Shown piece by piece: positions 6,701-64,000 of a stretch of DNA of 64,000 bases. Source of the stretch: Nannochloropsis salina CCMP1776. Lineage: Eukaryota; Sar; Eustigmatophyceae; Eustigmatales; Monodopsidaceae. A program made the translations under genes and the position numbers. The stretch lies in the NCBI GenBank assembly GCA_004565275.1, contig SDOX01000085.1, positions 51,173-115,172 of the forward strand. Direction: 5' to 3'. The notes beneath the pieces were generated by a model. The model did no database searches. It was not told the origin of the DNA and saw only the letters and a program-made list of their open reading frames with translations. Position 1 is the first letter of the stretch. The number at the start of each line of letters is the position of its first letter.

Positions 6701-9042
6701 ATATAGGGTTGGAACAGAGGAAAGAAAAACAAAGAGTAAAAAGGGAGGGGGGCGGGTCGGAGGGAGGGAGAAAAATACCGGGGCAGGTCCTTCAAATCCT
6801 TCATCAAGTCTTTCTCCTCCATCTCGAAGAGCTCCTTGTTCTCCCTGTACATCAAGGGGTGGTCCCAGAACGAGCCCACGTAGACACGCAGGACCTCGGG
6901 CGTTTTCATCACCTGGCGGGGGTGGGAAAGGAAAGGAGGAAGGGGGGAAGGGAGGGAGGGAGGGAGGGCATGGAGCAGCCCGCATTTTATTTCGGCACAT
7001 CTCTCCGGAGACAAGCTCCTGAAAATCTTCTTTTGCCAAGACTCTTCCCAAGATTCCAACCTCGTGCCACTGCCCTCTTTCTTTGCCTCCCTTCCCTTTC
7101 CCTTCTTGCTCTGTCAAGTACCTTGCCCATACTCCACATGAGCGCGCCATATACCCGCATGAGCTTCTGCCGGTCCACCTAAAGATTTGGCAGCAACAAT
7201 TCAAATTTAGATTTTAAATTCAAATTCAAATTCGAATGAAATAAAGGGGATTTCCGTCCATGCTCCCCGCCCTGGTCCCACCCAGTCCTTGACCGACCTG
7301 GTCGGCCTTATTCAGGACACAGCGGATTTTGTCGTCGTGACCCCGAAGCTTCTCGATCACCTCCTACGGTCGCAGCAATAAGACGGGAAAGGATAGCGGA
7401 AAGGGAGGGAAGGAGGAAAGGCGGAAGGTTTTAGAAAAGAGGACGCTTTGCAATTGGGGCCCACCACGCCATCTCCTTGAAGCTGTCTCGCAACGAATGC
7501 TCGATAGCACAAGAAAGGCGGGGGAGGGAAGGGGGGGAGGGATGGGGAGGGAGGGGCGTGATGTACCTTGAATTCATCGGATATATCGAGCTTGTGCGCA
7601 TCGAAGAGAAGAAGGATGAGATCGGCCCGCTCTGCAAACCAGCCGCACACGTTGGTGAAGTCGTACCTGAAGAGGGACGACGTGGGAAATGATGGAAAAG
7701 GACCCCGGATGGAGGATGGTGTGAAAGAGGGTACAAGCCAATGCAAGGCAACGTTGCGTCGGGGAATCACGGGAACGACAATCAGGGACACACTGCCTGC
7801 CTTTTGGCCCATGCCCCCCTCCCTCCTCCACGTCCTCCTTCCCTCCCTCGATTACCCGCGAGCCACCGTCTGCTTGTTCCCAGCCAGCACCCCGGGAGTA
7901 TCCACAATGTGAATGTTGCGAAGCACTTCGGAGGGACAGACAGAGCCCTGACAATGGGGGGGGGGGAGGGGAAAGTGTTGTTGGAACTTGTCGCAGACAT
8001 CCCACACCGCGTCGACTTGCCAATCAGGTCTCCCTCCCTCCCTCCCTCCCTCCCTCCCTCCCTCCCTCCCTCCCATTTTTACCTCGAACCGGTTCAGGAA
8101 AGAGACACCGAAGCGATCCAATCCCCGAAACGGCAAGTTTCCCGCCACCGCCATGGCGTTCCCTGGGAGGGAGGGAGGAAGGGAGGGCATTTGGAAGGGC
8201 ATGGGGAGAAAGAGGGATGGAAAAGGATGGAGGGAGGAAGGAGGAGGAGGGAGCGAAGGTGAGGATCTCAGGGCTGTAATCTAACACAGCAAGACTTCAC
8301 GCCGCGGTGACCAGCCCGGAAAGAGAACCCCTCCCTCCCTCCCTCCTTCTCGTCTCCCTCCCTCCCTCCCTCCCTCCCTCCCTACCGGGGATCACCCTCT
8401 CCTCAGGCCCGTCCATGACCGCCACGAACCGGTCGGTCGTGGGCTCGGGACCAATGCGTTGCCCGGGAAAGTCGCGACCGATCAGGTACCGAATGAACTG
8501 GGGAGGGGGGGAGGGAGGGAAGTGGGACGCTGCGAATGGTCCTCCGTCATACAAGCAATGTGGTGAGTACAGAGCACGAGGGCGCGGTGGAAAGGGAAGG
8601 GGAGGGGAAAAGGGTGAGAGCGAGGAAGGGAAGGGGAGAGAGGGAGGCTTACCGAGGTCTTCCCGGTACTGTACTGACCCACAAGCATGACCATGGGTTT
8701 CGAGTCAAACTCGGAGTCCGAAAGTGCAGGAGAATAGAAGGCGTCATACATGTACATCTAGGATGAAACGCAAGGAAGCGGACCCGATAAGCTGCGATTT
8801 CATGATCTAACCCAGACTTTTCAGGGCAACAGTGCACCGAAATGCCACCAACACATGCACAAGATAACCCCTGCCATTGGTAATTAATTGCTTTGGTGCT
8901 CATGGTCCCCTTGTATCTCTAACTCTCGAGCTCCTCTCCTCACCTGCTCGAGCGGCAAAATCGTGCTTTTGTAAATATTTTTTAGCCCCTGAATGACGCG
9001 CCGCGTGGCCTGATCCCGGCCTTGGTCCGACTGAGTACTCAT
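3794..9042 (-). CDS. EHD1: EHD-family dynamin-like ATPase
   Basis: Membrane-remodelling ATPase of endocytic recycling (EHD/RME-1/PAST family), acting on endosomal tubules and plasma membrane. More than ten short exons read in family order. They start with MSTQSDQGRDQATRRV at 9042. The first coding block, 8653-8757, carries the P-loop GQYSTGKTS. Next come the segments FIRYLIGRDFPGQRIGPEP, the DTPG switch in HIVDTPGVLAGNKQ, DLILLLFDAHKLDISDEF, and the NKAD motif in CVLNKADQ near 7300. The helical segments VYGALMWSMGK and LLRVHAYIIGYLKEQMPIF follow. The C-terminal EH domain has a complete EF-hand loop, DMDRDGLLDLEEF, spliced across 3920-4090, and the protein ends KRAYVM with a stop at 3794-3796. 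All key nucleotide motifs are present, so it should be active. Exact boundaries of some middle exons are uncertain. Confidence 0.93.
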
Positions 9043-25309: not shown

Positions 25310-28300
25310 TCACTTGGCATCGTCGTCCACTCCCACCGAGTCCTCTGCCTGCTTCTTATCCAGTGTTTTGTCCTCCTCCCTACTCCCGTCTCCTTCACTC
25401 CTCCCCCAACCATGGCTGTCCGACGCAAGCCCTCTCTCCTTCCCGCCCTCCCTCCCGCCCTCCCACCCACACTCCCCACGCTCTTCCGCCCGTCCCTCAT
25501 CATTTCTCTTCGATGACTCCCTCGCCCTCTTTTTCTCACAGCGTTCCCGCTTGGCTCTCAGGGACTCCTTCTTTGCTTCTTCCTTCCGTTTCACACACCG
25601 GCGCTTCCGCCGTCTACCTGGCTCCTCTTCACTGTACCGTAGGGAGAAAGGGAGGGAGGAAGGGAGGGAGGGAGGGAGGGAGGAAGGGAGGGAGGGAGGG
25701 AGGAAAAGGAAGCAGATCATGAGTGCACTGCTATTCTTTCCCCCTAGGGTTGCACGCGCTCCACTTGCCCACTTCCTTCTCACAGACGCACCTTTCCTCC
25801 TCCTCCTCTTGCTGTTTCTGTGCCTCGTCCTCCACCTCGTCCTCCTCCTCGTCCTCCTCGTCCTCCTCCTCGTCTCTCCTCTCCGCGCGCTTCCGTTTTA
25901 TGAAGTCCTAGAAATTTGGGGAGGGGATAGGGTTAGTGTTAGGATTTAAGTCATTGTGACAAAGAGGGAGGAGAAAGGAAGGAGGGCACAAAGTGTTGCC
26001 CTCTGAAAGGGTTTACCGAGCCGGAGAGAAACGGAGACAACACGGTAAAATGGACGGATCCCATCCGCGAACACACTGGGAGGAGAGAACAGATTGAACG
26101 AGAAAGCGAATTGATAGAAGAGGAGAGACGAGATGTAAGCTGCCTAGGAGGCGATACGTCATCCTCCGACCGAGATAGCGAGACGAAGGAGAGGTAAATT
26201 CGGCACTACATCCGTGAAAGCAGGACTGAAAAGAGGACAAGAGAGGGCGAAAGGCTACCTTTGTGACGGCAGTGAAGCACTTATGGGGCGCGAATCGTTT
26301 GGCTCGGAGAGGGATCCACTCGTCGTACTTGCTTGGCCATTTGTGGAAATGCACCTGGCGAGAGCGGGGAGGACCAGTAAGCACTTGAGAGGGAGGAAGG
26401 GAGGGAGGCAGAAAGGGAGGGAGGGAGGGAGGGAGGGAGAAAGGGAGGGAGGGAGGGAGGGAGGAAAAGCGCCACGTACCTTGACGACATCACCCTCCCG
26501 CTCGATGATCTTGCCTTCGTACCACACCTGCGGCATCAAATACCAGACACAGCGAGGATTGAAGCACTCAGCGGGCATCGCTCATGGCCCTTTGGACACG
26601 ACAAGTGTGTCGTGAACGAACGATGGCCCCGGCTCTCTCCGGGGCAAGCCCACCCTCCCCTCCCTCCCTCCCTCCCTCCCTCCCTACCTACCTTGTTGTG
26701 TTCGCACAGCACGTCCACCCAGTCATCGGGCTGGAGGGTGCTGAAGTCGTCCGAAAACTTGAGAGTGGCTTCTTCCTCCTCGTCCCAGGCCTCCTCCGGG
26801 GCCTCGCAAGACGCTTCGGATTGNNNNNNNNNNNNNNNNNNNNNNNNNNNNNNNNNNNNNNNNNNNNNNNNNNNNNNNNNNNNNNNNNNNNNNNNNNNNN
26901 NNNNNNNNNNNNNNNNNNNNNNNAGGGAGGGAGGGAGGGAGGGAGGGGCACGTTTATCCTTGAGATGCAAGCGGTCAGTATGCAAATCCTTTCCCTGCTA
27001 AGCCCACCATGCGTGCGTCCCTCCTTCTCTTTCCAGGAATCACAACAGAACCCTCTTTGCTTCCCTCTTCCCCGCCCTCCTCCCCCTCCCTTACGTGTTC
27101 AGCGCACAGAAGAAGGGAGAGGGCAACGTCTCTTCCTCGACAAACCAGGGCAGTCGCCGCCATTTCATACAGCTGGGTTCCTCGCACTGTGTCCCAGCGA
27201 GGGAGGAAGGGAGGGAAGGAGAGAGGGAGGGCGGGATGTTGAAGCAAATCTTCGTCACGGGTTCCGCGTCCCGATTTGGCAGCTCCTCTGTTTTCCTCCC
27301 GCCCGCCCTCCCGTCATCGCCCTCTTCGGCCCCTTCTCCTGTGTCCAAACTCACCTGCACCCACGTCGCAGGCGGGGCGGGCGGCAACTCCTCCCCTTTC
27401 TCTTCCTCGCCCTCCCTTCTTCCCCTCCCCACTTCCTCCTCCGCGCCTTCCCCTCCCTCCCCCAGTCCCTGCTCCCCGCTTTGCCCCAGCCCCTTCCCCC
27501 CGCTCCCTCTCACGCTGCTGCTGCTCGTACTGTTGTTACCCGCGTTGGGGGCGCCGGCGTAATAATTGGAGCTGTGCGTCTGACGCCCTCCACCTGGAAA
27601 AATAGGCAAGAGGAGGAAGGGAGGGAGGGAGGGAGGGAGGCGTGAGCTGTGATAAGATCAAGAGGGAGGAAGGGAGACAGGGTGGGAGAGCGGGTCGCAC
27701 CGGCAAGGAAGGAGCCTTGCGGCTGAATTTTCCGCTTGAGCGCCTCCACCTGTCGTCGGATGAAGAGGACGCGAAAGATATGAAAATGGAACGGAAACAA
27801 GGAGGGAGGGAGGGAAGGAGGGAGGGAGGGAGGAAGGGAGGGAGGCACGTACGGATGGGTTGCGGAGCTTGAGCTCGCCTTCCAAGGTTTCCACGACCTG
27901 CCCGACGGACCAACGATAGTTCAGCTCCCAGTCCAAGGCGGGGGCACCGTAGATCGGGAGGGAGGGAGGGGAGGAGGGAAGGAGGGAGGGCGGGAGGGGA
28001 GACTTCCCGTGCAGGGCTTGTTGAAGGGCTGCCCCAGGAAACAGGCAGTGAGAAGATCGGATCGGGTCACCTCCCTCCAGCGCTCTGCCTCTCGATGGCG
28101 TTCGTTCTCCTTTTTCAACTCTCCTCCTCCCTCCATCCCCCTCGTTTCCCTTTCCTCTCAACCTACCCGGAGGAAAGGGGGCCATGCGCGCGAATTTGTG
28201 ATCCAGGTGCTGATAGAGGAGCTCCCGCTTTTCCTTGGTGTAGATTTCCCCCTCCGCCGCGTACACCTTCACGAAATAGAGGGAGGAAGAAGAGAAAGGC

Positions 28301-37300: not shown

Positions 37301-38165
37301 AGGCAGGGAGGGATGAGGAAGGGAGGGAGGGAGGGAGGGAGGGAGGGAAACCCTACCAGGTTCTGAGAAGAAGCCAAACTTGTCTTGGCGCTCAAAGCGC
37401 GTGATCAGACGTTCGAGCTCCTTACACAGCAGATCTTCCAGCGACTTGCGCTCTTTCTTGGGCTGGAAAGGGAGGGAGGAAGGGAGGGAGGGAGGGAAGG
37501 AGGGAGGGAGGGAGGGCGAGTGAGGAGGGTGGCCGGGCGAACAAGTGCTCCCCTCCTCGTCAGGCACGTACCTCGATGTCCTGCTCCTGACTGCTCGGCT
37601 CGCTTCCCGCTACTACCGCCCTNNNNNNNNNNNNNNNNNNNNNNNNNNNNNNNNNNNNNNNNNNNNNNNNNNNNNNNNNNNNNNNNNNNNNNNNNNNNNN
37701 NNNNNNNNNNNNNNNNNNNNNNGAGGGAGGGAGGGAAGGGTCCCGAGGAGACCGCGGGGAGGGGGAAAGAGGGCGATGAAAGGGGTGAGGAGGCGATGTG
37801 GCCCGGGGATGGAGAAGGTAATAATCGTCCCGCACAAATTACAGCCCGGCTCCTCTTTCCCTCCCTCCCTCTTTCCCTCCCTCCCTCCCTACCTTGACGA
37901 TCCTGGCCACCCCTCCTCCTCGATAAACGCCGGGTCTCGTGTCCTCCACCACTTCCACGACCTCCCCTACTCGGAACGCCAACGCGGGGGAGCTCACAGG
38001 ATGGGAGGAGGTTGTGCGCGAAAGATCTTGTATTTCTTTGTCCTTCAGCTCTTTCGCTTCGTGATGTCCGGTAGCGGATGAAGCGGTGGGAGGGTGGGGG
38101 AGGGGAGGAGACTCGTCCACGTCGATGGGCGCAGGGGGAGGATCACGCCTGTTGGAGTCTACCAA
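25310..38165 (-). CDS. SET-domain histone H3K4 methyltransferase, ATXR3/SDG2 type, with terminal Tudor-like modules
   Basis: Nuclear chromatin enzyme. About 25 short exons run from [19 protein letters not shown] (38165) to a lysine-rich end (stop 25310-25312). Near the N-terminus (37880-37990) is a Tudor-like motif, [20 protein letters not shown]. The SET core is split among exons. [20 protein letters not shown] lies at about 32850-32930. [17 protein letters not shown] and [17 protein letters not shown] follow. Next come [20 protein letters not shown] near 31990 and [20 protein letters not shown], then CLCGSHICR at 31444-31536 (post-SET). The following family-specific helices match plant ATXR3: [71 protein letters not shown]. 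The C-terminus adds a second Tudor/chromo-barrel motif, [10 protein letters not shown] plus [11 protein letters not shown] (26290-26560). Two gaps interrupt it, and the N-terminal start is uncertain. The C-terminal Tudor part could be a separate gene. Confidence 0.8.
26824..26923. other. Assembly gap (100 N)
   Basis: 100 N in the C-terminal half of the SET-domain gene. It begins directly after coding sequence (exon with [20 protein letters not shown]) and is followed by a GGGA repeat, so part of an exon or intron is missing. Confidence 0.95.
35469..35486. repeat. Head-to-head telomere-like palindrome
   Basis: The perfect 18-bp palindrome GTTAGGGTTAACCCTAAC consists of TTAGGG-type units meeting CCCTAA-type units head to head. 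It sits in an intron of the SET-domain gene, 20 bp before the 47-bp tandem array. Confidence 0.85.
35506..35807. repeat. 47-bp tandem array, about 6.4 copies
   Basis: The string CGGTGCCATCGACTCTTCC restarts at 35506, 35553, 35600, 35647, 35694, 35741 and 35788, an exact 47-bp period. Copies differ only at a few positions (CATGCAAATAG / CATACACATAG / CATACAAATAG, and one GCTATC). There are no spacers, so it is a minisatellite, not a CRISPR array. It lies inside an intron of the SET-domain gene. Confidence 0.95.
37623..37722. other. Assembly gap (100 N)
   Basis: 100 N inside the 5' half of the SET-domain gene, bordered on the right by a GGGA tract. The flanking exon ([12 protein letters not shown]) is next to it. 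Confidence 0.95.
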
Positions 38166-48509: not shown

Positions 48510-50351
48510 ATGATTGTGTGTTTAGCTGGCCCACAAAATTCGAATTTCTCAGTCGTACACTCCGCGAACCTTTTCAAGTGTCTAGTCGGCCGCTTTCTGC
48601 CTCCTATGGAAGTGGTGCCAAGCCGTCGGGGCACAGCGCAAATCGCAGTGGAAATCGAGGAAGAGAAGGAAGCAATTTGCGTGCAAAAAGCGCTTGGGGC
48701 CTCCTTATCCTTGCTCCATGTCTTGCGACAGAAGCAGAAGCCCAGCCGTAGGCCGGAGGCGGAGGAATGGAGGGATCATTCGGTGCGATACGTTTCCCCT
48801 TCCTCGATGCCAGAGTCTTCCTCACCGAGTCACCTCGACGCTACCGTGTTGTCCCGCTCGGCTGGTTTTCAGGCCTTGCGGGTGTGCTTGGAAGAGATTC
48901 TGACCCTTCCCATGGCCCTGGAGCGGGAGCGAGAGGGCCTGGTCGCGACGGAACGGGCGTTTAAAGACGGCATGGGACCGTTTGCAGCGCCCGAGGGAGT
49001 AATCAAAAGCGACAAGGACACCAAAGTGAGTCTGCGGGACGATGAAGATTCCCTGTAGGCGTCCTTTTCCTCTTCCCATGCCTTCCCTGCCATATCCATC
49101 TCTCCCTTTCGCCTCCTCACCATGCCCCTACTGCTCTTTTTCTCCAAGCTTCGCTATCCTATCCCCGACTCTCCATATCTAATATTTGTGTTTCATATTA
49201 CGCCTCCTCGCCGTGCCCCTTCCCTCCCCCACTTTCTTACCAGACCACATAACCCTTTCCCCTCCCCTTTCCCTCCCTCGGTGCCCTCCCTCCCTCCCTC
49301 CTTCAAGCCCGACGTCCCCCAACCCTTCTCCCTCGCCCCCTCCCTCTTCGAGGCAGCGTCTACCGCCAGCCCCACCCCATCGGAGAGCAGCCACAGCGGC
49401 ATGGATCTCTCCCCTCCCCCCGCCTCGACGTGCAAGAGGCGCCGGCGTATGTGGTCGTACCATGGAGAGGCAGGGAGGGACGGGGCACAGGAGAAGGCGG
49501 GAAGGAGGGAGGGAGGGAGAGGGGGAAGGGGGGAGGGTCTCTTGCGAAGATCCCTCAGCGCGGGTTCTCTGCACGTCTTGGACACAGAGGAGGTGGAGAC
49601 CAGGAACGTGGAGGAGGAAGGAAGGGAGGGGGTGGAAGAGGAGCCCCTGCGCCCCCCGCCACACTGCGCCCTCCCCGCCCTCCCCAAGAGCCACGCCCAG
49701 ACCCATACTGCTTCCTGCCTCACTCCTTCTCCTCCCCCCTCCTCCCTCCCTGCCCGCGATACCTTCACCTCCACGACCGACCTGCTCCGCCTCACCGTCC
49801 ACTTCCTCCTCGTCGGGGACGCTCCTTCCCCCCCGCCTTCGTCCCCGCCCTCCCTCCCTCCCTCCCACCCACCCCCTCCCTCCGAGACCCTCTCCCGGCA
49901 TGACCGGCGGTGCCTGACCACCCTCTCGCTCGTTTGCAAGGCCTGGAAGGACCTCGCCCGAGAGCCTTGCTTTTGGCGCCCCATCCTCAAAGCGGTGCTT
50001 CCCGTGGCTGATGCGGAGGCGGAAGAACAGGCACCATGGCGGCGGTGGGAGGAAGGNNNNNNNNNNNNNNNNNNNNNNNNNNNNNNNNNNNNNNNNNNNN
50101 NNNNNNNNNNNNNNNNNNNNNNNNNNNNNNNNNNNNNNNNNNNNNNNNNNNNNNNNACGGGGGCTGGTACCATTAACTCGCATGGTAATGATTTTCATTC
50201 AGCATCTAAAACATTTCCCCCCCTCCCCCCTCCTCCCTCGCCTCCCTCCCTCCCTCCCTCACGACTCGCCATGGCCGCTTTCGCTTCGGAGAAGCTGATC
50301 CCGGGATCCGTGCCGCTCCTGCACAGCGCCTTCCCCACTCTGCCCATTTAA
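48510..50351 (+). CDS. F-box-like protein, interrupted by an assembly gap
   Basis: Exon 1 (48510 or, more likely, the ATG at 48606, to 49025, donor AAA/GTGAGT) joins in phase to exon 2 (from 49308, after TTCAAG): ...KSDKDTK + PDVPQPFSLAPS. The first part has ALRVCLEEILTLPMALERE. Exon 2 carries a basic patch, KRRRRMWSYHGEA, and an F-box-like segment: TTDLLRLTVHFLLVGD, then LTTLSLVCKAWKDLAREPC, then FWRPILKAVLPVADAEAEEQ. This resembles the F-box region of the minus-strand gene at 20290-22273 (LGLVCRWWQAVAWRDALWEE), so the two may be paralogues. The reading then enters a 100-N gap. After it an open frame ends ...LLHSAFPTLPI at 50351, but the real splicing there is unknown. Confidence 0.5.
50057..50156. 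other. Assembly gap (100 N)
   Basis: 100 N directly after coding sequence of the second F-box-like gene, at a GGGAGGAAGG border. Part of that gene's C-terminal coding region is missing. Confidence 0.95.
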
Positions 50352-54550: not shown

Positions 54551-55525
54551 GACATTCCCTTCCTCCCTCCCTCCCTCCCTCCCTGCCTCCCTGCCTCCCT
54601 GCCTCCCGTCTTTTTTTGCATGTGTTGGGCGGTCTGTGGTGGGGATTCCGTGCCGTTGCTGTATCCTCGTCATCCATCCCTGAAAATTTTTACTTGCCGG
54701 TTCACTTTGAGCATTTCAGGTTTCTGTTGTCACGTGTGGACCCGAGTGGCCTTAAGATGCACTTTCCCCCATATTGGGGAACGACGCGATTGTCGAGGAA
54801 TTAAACGGGAGGGGAAGGAAGAGGGCAAAGCCATGTCGGGCATGATACAAACATGAGGTTTACATGCTCTTTGCCTGCCTCCAACAGGAGGTTGTAAGGA
54901 TGTAGGAGAGTACGTGGAACCGGTGAATGTAACCGGTGTAGCATTGTAATCAAAAGAAAGGTATGCACGGACTCGAGGAGAAGGTGGGTATCGTGGGTTT
55001 TTGTCAAACAATATCAGCACAGTAGACTGTGTGCATGTTTGCATGCAATCCCTTTAACGGAATAGGAGGCTTTATCAAGCGTTCAGAGCACATGCATTTT
55101 GGCGGCGCGAAATAGAAAAAAGGTGCATTCGAGGGAAGGGAAAGACATAAAGGACGCCAGTGTCTTCATGCCTGTAATATAGGACTCCATAGCAACGAAC
55201 GTGTTTCCCGGCCAGAAGAGAATCAAAAAGCATGTAGAATACACTATATCATGAGGATACCGAGCAATGAGGATAAAGAGTTCATATAACAAAACTTGCA
55301 GTCGTTTCCTTACTTTTTCCGTAATTTCTTTCAAAATTTCAAAATTTCAAACATTCAGCGGTCAAGCTGAGGCACGTGAAAAACTAAATGTAATGCGTTC
55401 ATGGCACGTGACAGCATGAAAGCATCCTTCGAAGTTAGAGTTTTTCGCGCACTAGAAAGTTGCATCATCATCTATTCCCATGTCTCGTTGCTCCTTCACA
55501 GCACAGAGTAACAACGCCGGCCAGG
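54551..55525. other. Intergenic, AT-richer
   Basis: About 975 bp between two plus-strand genes. Here the sequence changes from CCCT-rich to more AT-rich. No gene seen; it should include the promoter of the following secreted-protein gene. Confidence 0.4.
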
Positions 55526-56683
55526 ATGGTAGATAAACAACCTCCCCAAGGCACCAGCTTTCCCCTCTCACTTTGTTTATTGGTACTGTCATTCGCTGGA
55601 CATGCATTGAAAATCCAGGGTCATACACTGTTGGAAAACATGAAAACGCTGTCTACCGCAGCACCCTCAGAATATGTTGACCCTCAAGAGACAATTACAA
55701 CAAAGGCGAACAAGCAAATTTTCATAGGATATGGCGCCGGTTGGTACGAGAATGGCCTGGGAAGCAATTATCATAGCAGTTATCCCTATCCTCCAGATCC
55801 TTTTCTCGCTGACTTCCAGTATTGGCCGGATTATGGCTGGGATCACCGCCATGACTTCCCTTACGTATGGGCGGGGCACAAGGATGTTTTCGATCAGGAA
55901 AGAGGTGGAACCATCAAAGACGGAAAAAGGCGTAGTGAAAATAGCAGAGCCTCTGAAGACATTCCAGGCCATGAACGGCTCCTCCAAGAAGAAGCGCAAA
56001 GGGAAGACGCGGAGCCATTGGAACCATCAGGGCAAGAAAATCAGATTGATACACATGAGCACGCAGGTCAACCTAGCCAAAAAAGCGATGTCAGCATCAA
56101 TAACAACCAGCCCTTTAAAGTTCAGAGACCGAAATCAGATTCTCACGTCAATGATATCGCCGCAGTAACTCACTCGGAGGGCGAAACATTTGCAGCTGGC
56201 CCTGTATTCGTGCCCGAGAAAGATATAAAGACAAAGGAGGAAAAGACAAGCGACAATTTAAGTACAGAAGGGATGTTCTCGAAAGGAGTGACGGGTTCCA
56301 GTGATGACCTATCTTCCATAACAGACAAGCAACACTATGGCGGGGGAGGATACCCCCCTTCAGGGTTATACTTCGGAGATGGGTTCATCAATGCATACTG
56401 GCACAAAGGCCGGAATGGGGCCGGTATCAGTCTCGGAGGAAATTTGGGTGACGGAAGCTATGGGATGAGATACGATCCTTATGCATGGAGGGGCAATGGC
56501 CCTTACTCCGGTGCCTACGATGGATATGGTCGCGGTAACCATGCCAACGGGAGGTATGGAGGCTACGGTAGATACATAGACTATGGCGAATACGGGGGGG
56601 GGCATGGGGTGACTGGGACAGGATGCTGCCGTCGTTTGCGTGGATCCTTCCGTAACATTGGAGAGAAAGATCAGAAACATTGA
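55526..56683 (+). CDS. Secreted Tyr/Gly-rich protein
   Basis: Intronless, 385 residues from the ATG at 55526. I prefer this to the upstream in-frame ATG at 55460 because it places a signal peptide at the start (FPLSLCLLVLSFAGHALKIQ). An N-terminal aromatic region has IGYGAGWYENGLGSNYHSSY and FQYWPDYGWDHRHDFPYVWA. A polar, charged middle of about 170 residues follows. The last 100 residues are a Tyr/Gly-rich module, with GGGGYPPSGLYFGDGF, GMRYDPYAWRGNGPYSGAYD and GYGRGNHANGRYGGYGRYID. It ends with a basic patch, GCCRRLRGSFRNIGEKD. I do not recognise a family. The composition fits a structural wall, mucilage or adhesive protein. It converges on the tyrosinase gene, whose stop lies 221 bp away. 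Confidence 0.72.
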   Translation: MVDKQPPQGTSFPLSLCLLVLSFAGHALKIQGHTLLENMKTLSTAAPSEYVDPQETITTKANKQIFIGYGAGWYENGLGSNYHSSYPYPPDPFLADFQYWPDYGWDHRHDFPYVWAGHKDVFDQERGGTIKDGKRRSENSRASEDIPGHERLLQEEAQREDAEPLEPSGQENQIDTHEHAGQPSQKSDVSINNNQPFKVQRPKSDSHVNDIAAVTHSEGETFAAGPVFVPEKDIKTKEEKTSDNLSTEGMFSKGVTGSSDDLSSITDKQHYGGGGYPPSGLYFGDGFINAYWHKGRNGAGISLGGNLGDGSYGMRYDPYAWRGNGPYSGAYDGYGRGNHANGRYGGYGRYIDYGEYGGGHGVTGTGCCRRLRGSFRNIGEKDQKH

Positions 56684-56904
56684 AAAAAAGATAATTTCAT
56701 GAGGCCACGCTCGTCAGATGAGAGCGCATCACTGGCCATGAAAGGATGCCCTCCAAGAGCTCTGCAAAGCCATGTTTACATTCCATTACTGCACTTGCAA
56801 TCGTTGCATACATCTTATTAATCCTTTGCTTTTATATTACACATCGCCCTGATGCTTATGGTCTTTCATTCTTACAATACAACATCTCACGCGCTGAAAT
56901 TTTG
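56684..56904. other. Short convergent intergenic region
   Basis: 221 bp between the stops of the Tyr/Gly-rich protein gene (+) and the tyrosinase gene (-). Nothing else seen. Confidence 0.6.
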
Positions 56905-59856
56905 CTACTTAGTCCTATTCGGGTCCCACCGCTTCCCTCCCCAATGTACGAGGTCATCATAGACATAGGGAAGGGACGGGTGGAGCGGGTGCATGAGCTC
57001 GTCTATTTCTTTCATACTGTAGTGCCGCCCTGGGTCTAGATCTTGCTCATTGGTAACCCTCTCTTCCTCTTCCTCATCGGCGGCTGCCATCAGATACGGT
57101 GTGAACGGCGAAGGGTCCGTGTATCGACCGCCAAGACAATCGCGCATTTCGCCGTCAGACGCAATGCTCTCTTTGGGGGAATCCCAATCCTTCGGTACAT
57201 CTCTTTGTTCGACTTGCTGGGTTGCTCCTCGGGCGCTCGAAGTCTCCCGTTCCCCTGCTTCCACCCGTCTCCTCAACCGTCCGTGTCTATGTCTCACTTG
57301 TCGATTCCTTGCCATAACATCGTCTTCGATTTCTCCTCTCCCTTCAAAATCTCTTTCCCAGTCAGCGTCGTCTCCTTCCCTCTGTCGATCTTTTCCCTCT
57401 CCCTTCTCTTGCAGCCCCTCTTCGCCGCCTTTCGCCTCACTCCAAGTTCGATTGAAACCGCGCTCCATTAAGGCCGGTGACAAGGCCAAGAAATGAGAGA
57501 GGCGGTCGAAATACACATGTGCAGCATAAAAGACTGGGTCGTTGATGGAGGCCATGGAGACAAAATGTCCGTTCACGGCTGTTTCGCACCATACACGTGC
57601 CACCATCCGCAGTAAGCGGTCTTGGTCTTCCCAGTCGTGAAAATTTCCGTCGTTTTTCAAAAACCGGAGCTCTTCTGTCCCTCGGTAGGGTGCCAAGAAG
57701 AATTCTCCAGGCCAAGCTCGCCTGACTTGGCGCAAATCGCTGGCGAGAAGCCGGTACAATTTGTAATATGGCATGTTCTCCGAGTCCAGTCCTGGACAAT
57801 GACAGCGACCAGCCTCCCTATCGCATTCCCGGAACCTTCTCAAGCCTTGAGCACGACCTGAAACGCCTAAAAAAGAGAGGAGCTCGGAAGAGTATTGAGG
57901 AAATGACTTTTGAAATTCCTTCAGGTTGACCCCACAATTCCAAGCGCCGCCTCCAAAGTGCGAGTGTAGCTGCAGATGTACCTGCATGTACAGGCAGGTG
58001 GTGGCTTCTTTCCACGTATTAAAGCTGTCGTAGCAGTCAAAGAGGTTCTGCGCCGGTGCCATTGGCAGGGCCATGGGCAAGCCGCACACAGTCTCACTGC
58101 GGGTGACAAAAGGGCTGGAGTTCAAAGTAAAAGATTTGGACGTGACAAATCCATAAGCATCTACACCGGGATCGTACGCCCGCATCACGTCTTCCGGCAG
58201 ATCTTCCGCTCGCACCATCGGCATCCGGGCAAAGCGACCACATCCCTCCACGACATGACCAGTGGTGGGACTGGTCTCCATGGGTCCGAACCCTTCGTTG
58301 TCGTCGGTTTGAAAGAACGGGTTGCCCCACCACCAGGTGGAACCAAGCGTCTGTGTGTCAATGTGGAAATCCCAGTAGGGGATAGCGCCCAAGGCAAGAT
58401 GAGGGACATGTGCTGATTTTTGTCCGACCGAACGGAATGGAGCGGTCTCATTGAGCACAACCGGTTGCCTCTTTCCGTCGGCTTCGCTTTCTTTCCCACT
58501 CTGTACGGCACTGATCCGCTTCATGTTCTGCTCCGCCCAGTGCATAAAAGCAGAGTGGACAGCCATAAACTGGTTGGGATCATGCAAGCACCATATTTCA
58601 CTGCTGTGTGCAGCGGTCAAAAGTGCATTGTTTGCGAATCGAGGCCCGTAACGCGCCCGACCGTCTGCTAGAGGTATTCGGTAAAAGATGTCAAGGCTCT
58701 CCAGGTACGTCTGACGATCGTCCCGCGTCAATGTCCGCATTTCGCGCCGCACCTCCTTACAAACGGCAGAGAGGGTCCGGTAGCTTCGGAGGGAAGGGCG
58801 CTCGATAACCTGGACGGTGAGCGTGCTTCCGGCCTGGGTGCAGGTGACATCGTGAACCAGGCGGCCGACGCCACGGCGAGAGAACACAACCTTACCACCC
58901 TCCTCTTGAACCTCGAAATCGTACGTCATATCTTCAAAAACATGATCCCTACTGGAGGAGGTGCGACGGGTGGGAGGACTTGACGGTGGAAGTGAATCTA
59001 GTGTGTGGAGAGGGTTCAGGACACGCAGGGTCGTAGGACGTTTTGCCTCAATGATCATATCCCAGCCATAAAGCTGCAGAGTCTCTTCAGCTATTGCTCC
59101 GTAGTCAGCACTGTAAGCTTGAATATGTAAAGGAATTTGGGCCAAGTCGTGGGTGGGTTTCGAACCCGAAGGTGAGATGATAGAGGCATGAGAAGTCGAG
59201 GATGATATGAAGTTGGAGGGAGAGGCGCCTGGAGGAACGGAAGGCATGGAAGAGGAGGACGACGTCGATTTTGGCTGGGTACCAGATGTATTTCGACCAT
59301 CATGTAATAAAATTTTAGTCCAATTGGAGAAAGCTGATGATGGAGAGGGTGGCATGTCAGCGGCTTTGGAAGAGGGAGTAAGCGACAGGTTGTGATAACT
59401 GCTAGATGGCACTTCAGGTAAGTGTGAGGTCTCAAATACCTTGACCGGCGGGTGAATGTTTTTATTTGGATCGCGCACTTGGGTATAAAATGATGATTTA
59501 CTATTTAGCGAGGAACTGTTGAATGAAATATTCATGATGGCATCAGGCGGACTCGAGTTGTGCTGAGAATGTATGTACGACCGGGCACCAAGGTATAAAG
59601 CTCCGAGTGTTACTAGGGCGTAATAAGGAGTGAGGCGATGGCAACAACTTGAATAGGGTTGCATAGTTGCTTGATCTGGGGGAGATGTTCTTGCTGGAGT
59701 AGGAAATTTACCGTCATTGGGTGTTTTCGAAGAGGGCGACGGGCCTGCCCAGGCCGATTTTTCCAACAAAAAGGCCTCGCTGTCATCTACTTCTCCATCC
59801 GTGACACCACTTATTCCAATGTCATCACTTTTATCGTCACCACAAGCTTCTCCCAT
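56905..59856 (-). CDS. Membrane-anchored tyrosinase (type 3 copper oxidase)
   Basis: Type 3 copper enzyme oxidising phenols or tyrosyl groups to quinones. The gene is intronless, 983 residues. It has an acidic N-terminus (residues about 1-60), a hydrophobic stretch near residues 75-92 (YYALVTLGALYLGARSYI) suggesting a type II membrane anchor, and a Ser/Pro linker. The copper domain follows. The CuA candidates are the His of LLTAAHSSEIWCLH and the pair in LHDPNQFMAVHSAFMHWAE, spaced nine residues as in bacterial tyrosinases. CuB has H-x3-H in VHLQLHSHFGGGAW, and the third ligand in NDPVFYAAHVYFDRL. All six copper ligands can be placed, so an active enzyme is plausible. The C-terminus is charged and ends near YDDLVHWGGKRWDPNRTK, recalling tyrosinase tails. 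The lumen- or outside-facing orientation is inferred. Confidence 0.88.
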   Translation of the reverse strand: MGEACGDDKSDDIGISGVTDGEVDDSEAFLLEKSAWAGPSPSSKTPNDGKFPTPARTSPPDQATMQPYSSCCHRLTPYYALVTLGALYLGARSYIHSQHNSSPPDAIMNISFNSSSLNSKSSFYTQVRDPNKNIHPPVKVFETSHLPEVPSSSYHNLSLTPSSKAADMPPSPSSAFSNWTKILLHDGRNTSGTQPKSTSSSSSMPSVPPGASPSNFISSSTSHASIISPSGSKPTHDLAQIPLHIQAYSADYGAIAEETLQLYGWDMIIEAKRPTTLRVLNPLHTLDSLPPSSPPTRRTSSSRDHVFEDMTYDFEVQEEGGKVVFSRRGVGRLVHDVTCTQAGSTLTVQVIERPSLRSYRTLSAVCKEVRREMRTLTRDDRQTYLESLDIFYRIPLADGRARYGPRFANNALLTAAHSSEIWCLHDPNQFMAVHSAFMHWAEQNMKRISAVQSGKESEADGKRQPVVLNETAPFRSVGQKSAHVPHLALGAIPYWDFHIDTQTLGSTWWWGNPFFQTDDNEGFGPMETSPTTGHVVEGCGRFARMPMVRAEDLPEDVMRAYDPGVDAYGFVTSKSFTLNSSPFVTRSETVCGLPMALPMAPAQNLFDCYDSFNTWKEATTCLYMQVHLQLHSHFGGGAWNCGVNLKEFQKSFPQYSSELLSFLGVSGRAQGLRRFRECDREAGRCHCPGLDSENMPYYKLYRLLASDLRQVRRAWPGEFFLAPYRGTEELRFLKNDGNFHDWEDQDRLLRMVARVWCETAVNGHFVSMASINDPVFYAAHVYFDRLSHFLALSPALMERGFNRTWSEAKGGEEGLQEKGEGKDRQREGDDADWERDFEGRGEIEDDVMARNRQVRHRHGRLRRRVEAGERETSSARGATQQVEQRDVPKDWDSPKESIASDGEMRDCLGGRYTDPSPFTPYLMAAADEEEEERVTNEQDLDPGRHYSMKEIDELMHPLHPSLPYVYDDLVHWGGKRWDPNRTK

Positions 59857-60821
59857 ATCACTTTTGTTCTTCCTGTAAAAATGAAAAAGGAAAAAATGTG
59901 AACGGATCGAATTTGCGTGGAAGAAGTAGAAGAGGACCTTTGAACTGCAACCCAGACAGAAATGTACGACACATTGTAGAAAAAGACACGAATGGTTACG
60001 GATTCAACGAAAAAGGAAAAGAAGTAAGGTTTTGCCTCCGACCCGCTCAGGAAAATGTGCCGCATCGTTTCAACTTGCGCCCGGTTCGATAGAAAGCCAA
60101 GCGGCGGCAGGGCAACGTTTCCGATTCGTGCTGAGATAGGGCGACAGCTGACGGTCGTGCCCGAGATGGTCATGATTTGACAAAATGTGCCGCGACGCGA
60201 CGCGTGCAGTGATATGACAATGAATTAAAATGCAATTTTATCTAAATATACTTATAAATATATAAATTTTCGACTACGGTCTTGCCTATGCATTGGTTGG
60301 CTCAAATTTTGGAGTGGGCGCGGTATTCGCCTGGAACAGACTTTTTTCAGCCCGGCCTTAACGGCTGAAATTTTGGGACTCCTGAAAATTTAGCCTGGTT
60401 TTTTGCCTGCGTGTAGGCACTCTTCACTTGCTCTTCTTTTGTTCACCTTGTGCTGCCTTTCTCTTTGTTTGTACGACAAATGTATAGCATGTTTTTATCT
60501 TGCATGACGCACTCTTTACATGGTGCATTATCGTGTTGTGTTCGATGAACCTCCTCCCTATGTCATCCGTGTACCTGCGAGAGGAGCATCCCCGTTCTAC
60601 CACATGGACCGCGAAGCAGTTTGTTCTGCTTTGTTTATGCAATGGTATAGCATGTAGTGAATACAGCTGACAAGATCATACAATTGGAGACATTTCTGTC
60701 AAATGAGATGCAGTATTCGATTTGGCAAAGTCTTTTTAATAACTAACTTACGCTTGCTTTTCTTTCCTTTCCCGACAAATATGTAAAAGCCTCAACCAAA
60801 ATTTCAAGACCAACCATCAAA
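59857..60821. promoter_or_regulatory. Divergent intergenic region
   Basis: 965 bp between the tyrosinase start (-) and the small Trp/Gly-rich secreted protein (+). The middle (60225-60275) is strongly AT-rich. It could act as a shared bidirectional promoter. Confidence 0.4.
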
Positions 60822-61232
60822 ATGAACACTTATTGTTCATGTCGTGTTCTCTACCTCGCTCTCTGTCTTCTCCTCTTGACTTTCCACGTGGCCGATGCGC
60901 AGGAGGCCTCAAATACGCTTGAGGCTACAGACGCCCTGTCCGTTGTCAGTCCCAGCCTGCGCGGCGGCTCAAAAGGACAAAAAGAAGTTGCCAATGACCA
61001 CAATAAAGTAAATGTCAAGGACGCTATGCGTCTCATCGACACGTTGGACTCCGTGTCTTCCCAACCGGAGGCGGAGAAAATGACGACTGTAAAAACAGAC
61101 AGGGAGGAAGCGGACAAAGGCTACTATAAGAAGAAAGGTTACGGCTGGGGCCGCGGGTGGGGACGTGGGGGCTGGGGACGTCGAGGTGGCTGGAGTGGTC
61201 GGGGTGGCTGGGGTCGTCCGGGGTGGCATTAA
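60822..61232 (+). CDS. Small secreted Trp/Gly/Arg-rich protein
   Basis: Intronless, 136 residues. An N-terminal signal peptide, VLYLALCLLLLTFHVADAQE, has a likely cleavage after ADA. The middle is polar with a predicted helix (VKDAMRLIDTLDSVSS). The C-terminus is a low-complexity module starting GYYKKKGYGWGRGWGRG and continuing with repeated GGW/GRGGW units to the end. No known family. Strong positive charge plus Trp and Tyr suggest binding to acidic polysaccharides or an adhesive/wall role. It lies divergently next to the tyrosinase gene and has the same secretory design (signal peptide, polar middle, aromatic Gly-rich tail) as the protein at 55526-56683. Confidence 0.72.
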   Translation: MNTYCSCRVLYLALCLLLLTFHVADAQEASNTLEATDALSVVSPSLRGGSKGQKEVANDHNKVNVKDAMRLIDTLDSVSSQPEAEKMTTVKTDREEADKGYYKKKGYGWGRGWGRGGWGRRGGWSGRGGWGRPGWH

Positions 61233-61960
61233 GCGTCCTTCCTACTGTTTCTTTGTCAACATTGGTCGGGGAGCAACGAAAGACTACATGGTCATCATGG
61301 TCAGGATTGCCGGACCTACAAAATGAGAGAAATGGGGATGTGAATGAAGTTCAAATGCTTATATGGGAGTCAATTAAGTTTGAATCGATAAAAAAGACTC
61401 AGTGATTGAGAGAGGCCGCGATTTTCCTCGGGAACAGACATGTCACGACGGGCAAGAGGGATGACGTCGCCCACAAGCGAGACAGATATACGATGCGACG
61501 ACGAGCGTCACACAGGAGCAAGGGGCCATGTGGGACCGACGACGTATGTCTCGCATCGACGAAGAAACAAAAAAAAAAGACCGACGATACGTGACGGCCG
61601 AGTATTTTGGATAGACTTGGGCTCGACAGTGACAAGGGCACAGTCATACGTTGCAGGCATATTCTGAAGTTGATCCGTGAGAGGAGGGGGGAGAAGTTGA
61701 ATGAATGGCTTACGTCAAAAGCATCGACGCGACGAGCGTCTTCCTTCTTTATGCCTTTTGTTTTGTGCCCTTTGTCACGTCCGCTTATTTTACATCATGT
61801 ACACAGAGAAAGAGACTACATAGAGAAAGAGACGCCAACAGGGATTTTACAGGGCTTCAAAAATAACCCGTTTCCCTCCTCTGAGGCCGTTTATTCCGTA
61901 CTTTGTCAAGGTTGCTTATATACACGATGCCTATAGAGACAGCCAGACCTGCCCGAGGAG
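61233..61960. other. Convergent intergenic region
   Basis: About 730 bp between the small secreted protein gene (+) and RMI2 (-). No coding feature seen. Confidence 0.4.
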
Positions 61961-62754
61961 TCATGCCGACAGGGGGGTGGCTTCCTTCCCCCAGGCATGC
62001 AGGACCTCCAGGTTCCACATCGCCTCCCTCAACGGGTCGGCTTGAGAAAGATCAATGGCTTGGTGGGCCATCACGACGCGCTGCGCCTGGCGGTGCGGTG
62101 TCCTTTCCGGTCCCAAATTCCCCGCGGGCATGGGGCAGAACTCGTCGTAGGGGCGACCGATGATCAAGAGGTACTGGCCTGAGGTATAAAGGATAGGAGG
62201 AATGGAAAGAAAGAGGTAGGGGGAGAAGACACATGAAAGGGAGGAAAGAAGAGGCGGGGTCGGTGTCCAGAAAGGCCATGAAGCCGGATCCAAACTCTCA
62301 AATAGCATCTCTTGCAGTGACAAGACGCGCATTTTCATGTTTACTATCCTTTTTGTACTCATCCCTCTCTTATTCACCTTTTCTTATGTCGATGGGCACC
62401 ACCACATCAGTAAGGACGACATTGAGGAGGGCGGTGCTGTCATCTAAGCGTAGCCGGTCAGGTTGCAAATCGACCACTGTGCCCTGTGGAAGAATGTGAA
62501 ACGCAAGGCACATTATCAATGTAAGTATAGAGGATGTGCATGACGGTGTGTGCACGGTGGTTTGGCGCATTGTTCCCGATACGTGCCTGCACCCACACTC
62601 GCTCTGGTATCTCCGTCCCTCTCCAAACGTAAACAATCGAAGGCGATGACGTGGAAGAAGAGGCAGTGAGGGATGGAGAGTTTGAGCAGGTAGACGAGGA
62701 AGAAGGAGGGCGAAGAGTAGCCTCGAGGAGCTGGCGGAGAAAAACCTTTTGCAT
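61961..62754 (-). CDS. RMI2: RecQ-mediated genome instability protein 2 (RMI2) homologue
   Basis: OB-fold subunit of the BLM/TOP3A/RMI (BTR) dissolvasome that resolves double Holliday junctions in the nucleus. Three exons are seen. The first starts MQKVFLRQLLEATLRP, followed by a Ser-rich stretch and WRGTEIPERVWVQ. The second is GTVVDLQPDRLRLDDSTALL then VVLTDVVVPIDIRK. The third is GQYLLIIGRPYDEFCPMPA, then AHQAIDLSQADPLREAMWNL and EVLHAWG, with a stop at 61961-61963. The end closely follows the human RMI2 pattern (KxxDLS..P..ExMWxLEV). The first intron begins CAG/GCACGT, a GC donor. An upstream in-frame ATG at 62817 is possible, but 62754 fits the family start better. Confidence 0.82.
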
Positions 62755-63523
62755 GCTGTAGGGTGGGGAAAGGAGTGAGGACGAATGGTATTTCACAGGA
62801 TGGAATAAACCATCCACAGTGTTATCACATCCAAGGAGGGAAGCCGATTGAAGGACAGATGAAAGAACAGAATTTCTTATCTCCTAACAAATTGGTTTTC
62901 CTTCATGTGGCTATCGAAATTCCAAGGAACGTAGGGTATACTTGCATCAACGAGGCAATAAGTGGTCGCTTCCGGGATCAGCGAGGGGTCAAAACCGCCT
63001 TCGGTTAAATCAGTATCACGTTCACAAACGCATCGTGTCGGGAATTTTAGGGGGGTTTAAAGAAGCCATACGTTTCAATGACCAAGAAATAAGGACAGTA
63101 GGCTTGATAGGCAAGTTGGATCACAATATCTGGCAGTGGAATGAGATTTCGAGAGGGGAGAGGAGGTTATTCCCAAGCACGCGGGAAAAAGTCTTGTCAT
63201 GCCCATAATATTTATGAAGAGGCATTAACTTCTCTATGATTGCACGAAGGGAAGGATCATGACAATTCAAAGTTCGACCGTGAGATTGGACTTTAAGAAA
63301 GAGAACCCACCCAGCTCAATCGTCTGTCGCGGGAGGATGCAAGGCAGGAGGGGTAGATTCTCAGCATCGTATACAATCAAAGTGTCCTGTCCTTTGTTGG
63401 CTTCAACAGATTGGACTTGGATTACGCACGATTGCTGCCACTCGATCACCTCCTTCTTCATCCCCTCCCCCCACGCCTCCTTGACCTTTCAAAAGAATGC
63501 TTCTCCTCAAGATTTATCCGTAC
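62755..63523. other. Intergenic with a possible extra exon
   Basis: About 770 bp upstream of RMI2. On the minus strand, 63267-63490 holds an open segment after an acceptor-like TTTTGAAAG: VKEAWGEGMKKEVIEWQQ, then SCVIQVQSVEANKGQDTLIV and ILPRQTIELGGFSFLKSN. It reads like real protein and may be an alternative C-terminal exon of the next gene or part of another gene. Confidence 0.35.
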
Positions 63524-64000
63524 CTAAATGCGATCATTCGCTTCCTCCCCTCCCTCTCCTTCTTCTACACTCCTCCCGCCACCGCTCCCCATCCCACCTC
63601 CTAGCGCACCCATGAGACCCCCAATATCGGGCATCCCCCCTCCTCCTCCTCCTCCTCCTCCTCCTCCTCCTCCCATCATCCCTCCCATCATTTGCGACAT
63701 CTTTTACCAGGAGATATGATATGCACGAAAGATATGCAAGAAGTGTGAGTAAAAAGTCGTCCCACATCCCAAGTGAATCAAACACATGCTCGCGACCCTC
63801 CTCCCTCCCTCCCTCTCTCCCTCCCTCCCTCTCTCCCTCCCTCCCTCCCTCCCTCCCCGCCTGCCTCGTACCTGCGCCAAGGCATTGGGATCCTTCATCA
63901 TCTGCGCCGCCTTCTCCCGCATACCCGGCGCCTGCATCATCGACTGCGCCCTGTGAGACACGCACCGAGTGGGAGGGAAGGAGGGAGGGAGGGAGGGAGG
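63524..64000 (-). CDS. STI1-like co-chaperone domain protein, 3' part
   Basis: Runs off the right end of the window, so only the C-terminal part is seen. An exon at about 63875-63955 reads HRAQSMMQAPGMREKAAQMM then KDPNALAQV, a methionine-rich helix pair like the STI1 (Hop/SGTA/ubiquilin/Tic40-type) Hsp70/Hsp90-associated module. After a CCCT-rich intron, the last exon (starting after GTAAAAG) reads MSQMMGGMMGGGG. It continues with a polyglycine run encoded by a CTC triplet repeat, then MPDIGGLMGALGGGMGSGG and EEGEGGEEANDRI, with a stop at 63524-63526. The exact family and the full domain set cannot be judged from this piece. Confidence 0.6.
63638..63676. repeat. CTC triplet repeat (codes for Gly)
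   Basis: About a dozen CTC/TCC triplets, read on the minus strand as a polyglycine run in the C-terminal exon of the STI1-like gene. Confidence 0.85.

Follow-up and report, generated by a model that had tools for sequence, protein, structure and literature searches.

Mussel byssus, insect cuticle and the schistosome egg shell are cured through 3,4-dihydroxyphenylalanine (DOPA) and quinones, and combine a secreted Tyr/Gly-rich protein with a phenol oxidase. Human TYR and TYRP are membrane-anchored melanosomal enzymes of the tyrosinase family, with a lumenal copper domain, a C-terminal anchor and close spacing in the second copper site (CuB); in type-3 copper proteins generally, the second and third histidines of this site (HisB2 and HisB3) normally lie about 20 to 35 residues apart. 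Here, we report a three-gene locus of the alga Nannochloropsis salina CCMP1776, found in a 64,000-nucleotide stretch (hereafter the window; GenBank assembly GCA_004565275.1, contig SDOX01000085.1, positions 51,173 to 115,172, forward strand), in which a tyrosinase-like protein (the oxidase) lies between a secreted Tyr/Gly-rich protein (gene 1) and a small Trp/Gly/Arg-rich protein (gene 3). The initial annotation of this DNA proposed that the trio encodes an enzyme and its extracellular substrates. We find that the oxidase is a variant type-3 copper protein with a split CuB site, that its adjacency to gene 1 is probably kept in one other species, and that cross-linking of gene 1 by the oxidase is, tentatively, the leading interpretation.

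The oxidase passed the Pfam tyrosinase profile (PF00264) weakly, at 27.3 bits (cut-off, 22.6). Nine relatives (one 95% identical, four at 54 to 61%, and four at 22 to 26%) were aligned with it without dropping any of the 10 rows (alignment A2); the truncated sequences P0002 and P0005 were omitted only from counts at positions that they do not cover. The histidines of the first copper site (CuA; H417, H425, and H434) are kept in 9/9 covering rows and those of CuB (H627, H631, and H780) in 10/10, which bears out the initial placement of all six copper ligands. A Cys precedes the second CuA histidine (HisA2) in all nine covering rows, two residues ahead in seven and four ahead in P0008 and P0009, and the three CuA histidines align (hhalign) with those of a second tyrosinase from the same genome, the CBM1-tyrosinase described below. 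A profile of the ten oxidases matched 35 sequences of solved structures at an E value of ≤0.01, all named hemocyanin or phenol/aminophenol oxidase. Against the NCBIfam MelC2 equivalog NF047834, the oxidase scored 17 bits, below the curated cut-off of 450, as did the CBM1-tyrosinase (115.8 bits).

CuB is where the group departs from the family. HisB2 and HisB3 are 149 to 171 residues apart in 10/10 rows, versus 22 in the CBM1-tyrosinase, and the insert between them carries three cysteines (Cys678, Cys685, and Cys687) that are invariant in all 10 rows. The oxidase thus has the three CuA and three CuB histidines of type-3 copper proteins, lacks their close HisB2/HisB3 spacing, and is a variant of the family and not a standard member; the split-CuB group adds a form of its own to a much-studied enzyme family. 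On the N-terminal side of the copper domain (residues ~370 to 800) lie an acidic tail, a possible signal-anchor helix (~72 to 97), a Ser-rich linker and a beta domain (~240 to 367); a variable charged linker and a conserved C-terminal PYVYDDLVHWGG motif follow it. The beta domain was modelled best at residues 311 to 360 (block predicted local distance difference test [pLDDT], 76 to 86), and residues 72 to 97 were modelled as a helix with a pLDDT of <50 except at residues ~80 to 84. An N-terminal membrane anchor, possibly of the type II kind, is probable though uncertain: the near-N-terminal hydrophobicity was 1.28 to 2.34 in six other relatives with complete N termini (P0003, P0004, and P0006 to P0009; P0002 and P0005 are without N terminus and stood outside this comparison), although P0008, whose hydrophobic stretch lies at residue 17, may have a cleaved signal there.

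Gene 1 encodes an orphan protein that is represented by a single locus in its own genome and for which searches of Pfam and NCBIfam returned nothing over cut-off. Six relatives were found (one 92% identical; five at 37 to 40% in the alignment and 29 to 34% by local BLASTP) and aligned with it, no rows being dropped (alignment A1; 7 rows). The family has in common a signal-like N terminus (read as a signal peptide in gene 1), an aromatic block (residues ~72 to 117 of gene 1), a variable charged middle, a Gly/Tyr tail and a terminal CC-RRLRG, with one extra Arg in P0013; the start codon of gene 1 matches that of P0011, P0013 and P0015. Secretion is probable, in keeping with the initial description as a secreted Tyr/Gly-rich protein. 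The block holds 7 Tyr, 4 Trp and 6 Pro in 46 residues and follows, with few exceptions, the consensus GWYENG-GSN-HS-YPYP-DP---D-Q-WPDYGWD-R--FPY. Tyr and Trp occupy preferentially invariant positions, above all in this block: 15/30 of them are invariant in the seven aligned sequences, versus 75/355 of the other residues (Fisher P = 0.0008, from rows that are non-independent, the five distant ones being alike), and Gly is enriched too (28/55). Emphasis had first been placed on the Tyr-rich tail, which is indeed kept (12.7 to 16.4% Tyr and 27 to 32% Gly over the last 110 residues in 7/7 rows); no conserved part is longer than the aromatic block.

The gene 1 protein is probably disordered; its AlphaFold model, made with 7 sequences, has a mean pLDDT of 30.9 over the whole protein, which neither shows nor excludes a fold. 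A likeness to azurin was rejected: a profile search of solved structures gave 73 matches at an E value of ≤1, the best 60 of which were all azurins, and the best E value (0.014, in the variable middle) is at chance level. In viral contigs, 23 stretches fitted a pattern, and gene 1 relatives among them numbered 0.

Gene 1 and the oxidase probably adjoin in one other species, ~60% identical in the oxidase. The contig statistics of oxidase relative P0005 and gene 1 relative P0014 are identical (5 members, 3 contigs, longest 8,629), most simply because both lie on the same contigs. Such a match to gene 1 contig statistics was found for 1/5 oxidase relatives at ≥54% identity; the six gene 1 matches included no contig matching that of P0002 (4,930), and none corresponded to contigs of the distant relatives P0006 to P0009. 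A missing match says little, since the 92 to 99% identical relatives of the three genes also differ in longest contig (9,113, 9,769, and 4,014). This contig evidence for a grouping is stronger than that from composition, in which the peak 40-residue Gly/Tyr/Trp fraction put gene 3 first (0.62) and gene 1 second (0.57) ahead of the next candidate (0.40), in a ranking made after the fact among 49 open reading frames (ORFs), many of them mechanical ORFs and not genes, that a crude signal-peptide rule selected from 248 kb of the genome. The same scan held two 225-amino-acid ORFs with identical values and starts 3,169 bases apart (L015:4166-4843 and 7335-8012, both +), probably a tandem duplicate lying downstream on that contig.

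Wall-directed tyrosinase chemistry gains plausibility from elsewhere in the genome, which encodes a secreted CBM1-tyrosinase. A six-frame PF00264 search of the genome returned one locus at an E value of ≤0.001, on contig C15 (the window oxidase was not listed, presumably as its pieces score too low). The protein has a signal-like N terminus, a cellulose-binding module (CBM1; 29.2 bits; cut-off, 20.6) and a tyrosinase domain (115.2 bits). No other CBM1 was detected in a six-frame whole-genome search, which is blind to introns; passages of PMC3532174 report CBM1 in oomycetes and its absence from the brown alga and both diatoms examined there. Tyrosinase chemistry at the cellulosic wall is therefore likely, independent of the window.

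The following sequence of events would fit these data. The oxidase would be a phenol oxidase of the type-3 copper class, probably held in a membrane by a single helix near its N terminus, the copper domain facing the secretory lumen or the cell exterior. It would work late in secretion or at the cell surface and oxidize phenolic side chains of secreted material, the gene 1 protein being the leading candidate substrate. Oxidation to quinones (or oxidation of pre-formed DOPA) may couple gene 1, through its many Tyr and Trp residues and its two C-terminal cysteines, to itself or to wall material, and the wall may gain toughness or attachment from the coupled protein. Gene 3 would possibly be a later, lineage-specific addition. 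An extended version is distinctly improbable: a eustigmatophyte protein-tanning system in which the split-site oxidase, anchored at the surface, cures a dedicated aromatic protein inherited along with it where the plasma membrane lies, the cellulose-bound CBM1-tyrosinase does the same in the wall, and the cellulose layer is thereby welded to the membrane (for example, at struts).

Several observations weigh against cross-linking. The cluster genes stand in opposite orientations and form no operon (gene 1 and the oxidase converge, their stop codons 221 bp apart, and the oxidase and gene 3 diverge from starts 965 bp apart), and genes that adjoin in this way need not have a shared function. The six gene 1 matches include no contig matching the long contigs of P0003 (741,728 bases) and P0004 (597,381 bases). 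No secreted aromatic protein lies beside the CBM1-tyrosinase, which shows that tyrosinases here do not generally adjoin their substrates. The CuB ligands were assigned from motif and conservation, the hhalign comparison with the CBM1-tyrosinase having aligned the CuA half only. The copper domain was poorly modelled (mean pLDDT of the whole oxidase, 38.5), and a Foldseek search with the model gave no structural match at an E value of ≤0.001; its weak matches (best E value, 0.036) include many fibronectin-III-like domains, presumably from the beta domain. The anchor stretch is weakly hydrophobic (best 19-mer, 0.88 in the window oxidase and 0.83 in P0001), and an internal stretch near residue 590 is equally so in both (0.89). 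A search for gene 3 relatives, by a method that can miss low-complexity ones, gave a sole match, 99% identical. Finally, the position directly behind the first histidine of CuB (HisB1+1) holds Leu in the window oxidase and not the Asn common in tyrosinases.

Gene 3 is apparently lineage-restricted (a search of its own genome gave itself and one weak match, with an E value of 0.063), and the trio is therefore not a conserved unit. As first described, its product is a small, secreted-looking Trp/Gly/Arg-rich protein, with a signal-like N terminus and 6 Trp, 16 Gly and 6 Arg in a 37-residue tail; it is Tyr-poor (5/136). The expectation of a conserved neighbourhood thus probably holds for gene 1 and the oxidase in the one other species and does not extend to gene 3. 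The proposal of a cross-linking cluster likewise survives in part: the gene 1-oxidase adjacency, the invariant aromatic residues and the CBM1-tyrosinase speak for it, and gene 3, the Leu at HisB1+1 and the gene orientations speak against it.

Nearly as plausible is that small molecules are the substrates of the enzyme, which would then be a secretory-pathway or surface oxidase of phenols or catechols (in pigment, defence or antioxidant chemistry), and that its neighbours are unrelated secreted proteins. None of the 10 rows has Asn at HisB1+1, the near relatives carrying Leu and the distant ones Ala or Gly; according to passages of PMC8049008, Asn is found there often but not exclusively in tyrosinases, and some of the catechol oxidases listed in that paper have Ile, Thr or Gly at the position. 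The Tyr hydroxylation that cross-linking needs is therefore not assured. The opposite gene orientations also fit a small-molecule enzyme, as do the housekeeping-looking neighbours of the CBM1-tyrosinase (adenylosuccinate lyase, a CDK-type kinase and an AAA protease, named by eye) and the single contig match among the five closer oxidase relatives, with none for P0006 to P0009. Against it, two Gly/aromatic outliers flank the oxidase, and one of them probably keeps its place in another species.

It is unlikely that gene 1 and gene 3 encode wall proteins cross-linked by the CBM1-tyrosinase or by a peroxidase, with the window oxidase incidental. The CBM1-tyrosinase is the cleaner enzyme by domain score and by its CuB spacing, and brings its own cellulose-binding module, yet it lies on another contig without a secreted aromatic neighbour, and the adjacency of gene 1 and the oxidase would be left unexplained. 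Least probable is a copper or oxygen binder that is not an oxidase, either a hemocyanin-like carrier or a sensor whose split site has little catalytic power: the best profile matches are hemocyanins (E value, 6.7e-41, owing partly to their many domain repeats per chain) and CuB is interrupted in every row, but all copper ligands are strictly kept, and some oxidase activity is usual in open-site type-3 proteins. The reading in which the window oxidase cross-links gene 1 tentatively keeps its leading place, by a narrow margin.

The features are collected in Table 1. Contig C89, on which the window lies, belongs to a 26.5-Mb genome assembled in 103 contigs. All three gene calls are borne out, positions included. 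As to their initial description as consecutive and intronless, all three are uninterrupted ORFs, and the lack of introns is supported by relatives for two of them: the oxidase (a 983-amino-acid relative at 94 to 95% identity and one of 1,025 amino acids) and gene 1 (P0011 to P0015). The block was also correctly recognized as less GC-rich and free of CCCT tracts: its GC content is 0.501, versus 0.559 elsewhere (equally low in 9/234 overlapping 5.7-kb windows), and 0/233 of the CCCT/AGGG tandem tracts of the window fall in it, with ~21 expected from its length. The longest tract-free stretch of the window (54584-63548; 8,964 of 64,000 bases) encloses the cluster, all 233 tracts lying elsewhere. 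The window also contains four runs of exactly 100 N (730-829, 26824-26923, 37623-37722, and 50057-50156), which are assembly gaps or masked stretches.

Table 1. Coordinates of the features discussed (positions are those of the window unless a contig is given)
Feature	Position	Strand	Basis or remark
Gene 1, secreted Tyr/Gly-rich orphan protein (385 amino acids)	55526..56683	+	ORF; 6 relatives; alignment A1
Gene 1 conserved aromatic block (residues 72-117)	55739..55876	+	Alignment A1; composition
Atypical type-3 copper protein, tyrosinase-like (983 amino acids)	56905..59856	-	PF00264; 9 relatives; alignment A2; model
Gene 3, secreted Trp/Gly/Arg-rich protein (136 amino acids)	60822..61232	+	ORF; one relative, 99%
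Divergent intergenic region, oxidase/gene 3 (965 bp)	59857..60821		Holds TGAAATTTTG at 60366 and CAAAATTTCA at 60797
Two overlapping CAAAATTTCA copies upstream of gene 1	55332..55349	+	Possibly the end of a 5' untranslated region (5'-UTR) intron, not a promoter element
CBM1-tyrosinase	L001:706-2625 = L006:5251-7170, contig C15	-	Six-frame PF00264 genome search

The 10-mer CAAAATTTCA occurs upstream of all three genes, with five sites in or beside the cluster and none elsewhere in the 248 kb, and has 144 sites genome-wide versus 30 for the reversed control (~5-fold). In a post hoc shuffle test, any 10-mer common to the three upstream regions arose in 2/2,000 shuffles with 600-bp regions and 10/2,000 with 965-bp regions; at 400 or 482 bp, the three regions had no 10-mer in common. 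The sequence TTTCAAAATTTCAAAATTTCAAAC, at window positions 55329-55352 (+), recurs on contig C42 (L025:2001-2024, -). By eye, the CAAAATTTCA tandem there, the one site inspected outside the cluster, sits in what looks like an intron of a carrier-like gene, immediately ahead of the 3' splice site, and CAAAATTTCA is thus not promoter-specific; we take it as a weak hint of shared regulation. TTTCAAAATTTCAAAATTTCAAAC may mark a 5'-UTR intron of gene 1 or be a dispersed short element. An LRG/RxLR-like processing motif common to gene 1, gene 3 and the oxidases was rejected as too weak (4/24 crude signal-peptide ORFs versus 7/105 others).

Passages of PMC10305002 describe the Nannochloropsis wall as cellulose inside and algaenan outside, with struts to the plasma membrane, and walls of this type as robust and a hindrance to the extraction of cell contents; in PMC11211512, a passage proposes the red body as the carrier of algaenan precursors to the wall. 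The word "tyrosinase" is absent from the main text of that paper and of the N. oceanica genome paper (PMC3499364), and the matches listed for tyrosinase in Nannochloropsis or eustigmatophytes comprised, by title, studies of extracts and of inhibition, reviews and papers on other subjects, with none on a tyrosinase of these algae among those listed. If the cross-linking reading is true, the gene 1-oxidase pair bears on how Nannochloropsis-type walls toughen: quinone curing would add protein chemistry to such a wall, and the two enzymes and the one candidate substrate could each be knocked out.

Molluscan hemocyanin functional units are the best solved-structure profile matches of the oxidase, which differs from them in being single-domain, in its probable membrane anchor and in its split CuB. 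With the tyrosinase/polyphenol oxidase family (PF00264), it shares the six histidines, the Cys before HisA2 (spaced C-x-H in 7/9 rows, with two more residues between them in P0008 and P0009), and PYWDF, HxxxHxxxGG, DPxFxxxH and C-terminal YxY/YxF motifs, which we take to be signatures of that family; it differs in the long CuB gap with its invariant Cys trio, the N-terminal extension (probable anchor and beta domain) and the low profile score. Unlike in human TYR/TYRP, the probable anchor is N-terminal and CuB is split. The chytrid CBM18-tyrosinase fusions, as described in passages of PMC3569864, resemble the second enzyme of this genome in joining a polysaccharide-binding module to a tyrosinase; there, the module is a chitin-binding one and the organism is a fungus, and the window oxidase is without such a module. 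The DOPA/quinone-cured proteins of animals are like this locus in pairing a secreted Tyr/Gly-rich protein with a phenol oxidase-like enzyme, as predicted here from the genome sequence; the locus differs from them in that the two genes adjoin, the organism is an alga, and the enzyme is probably anchored in the membrane.

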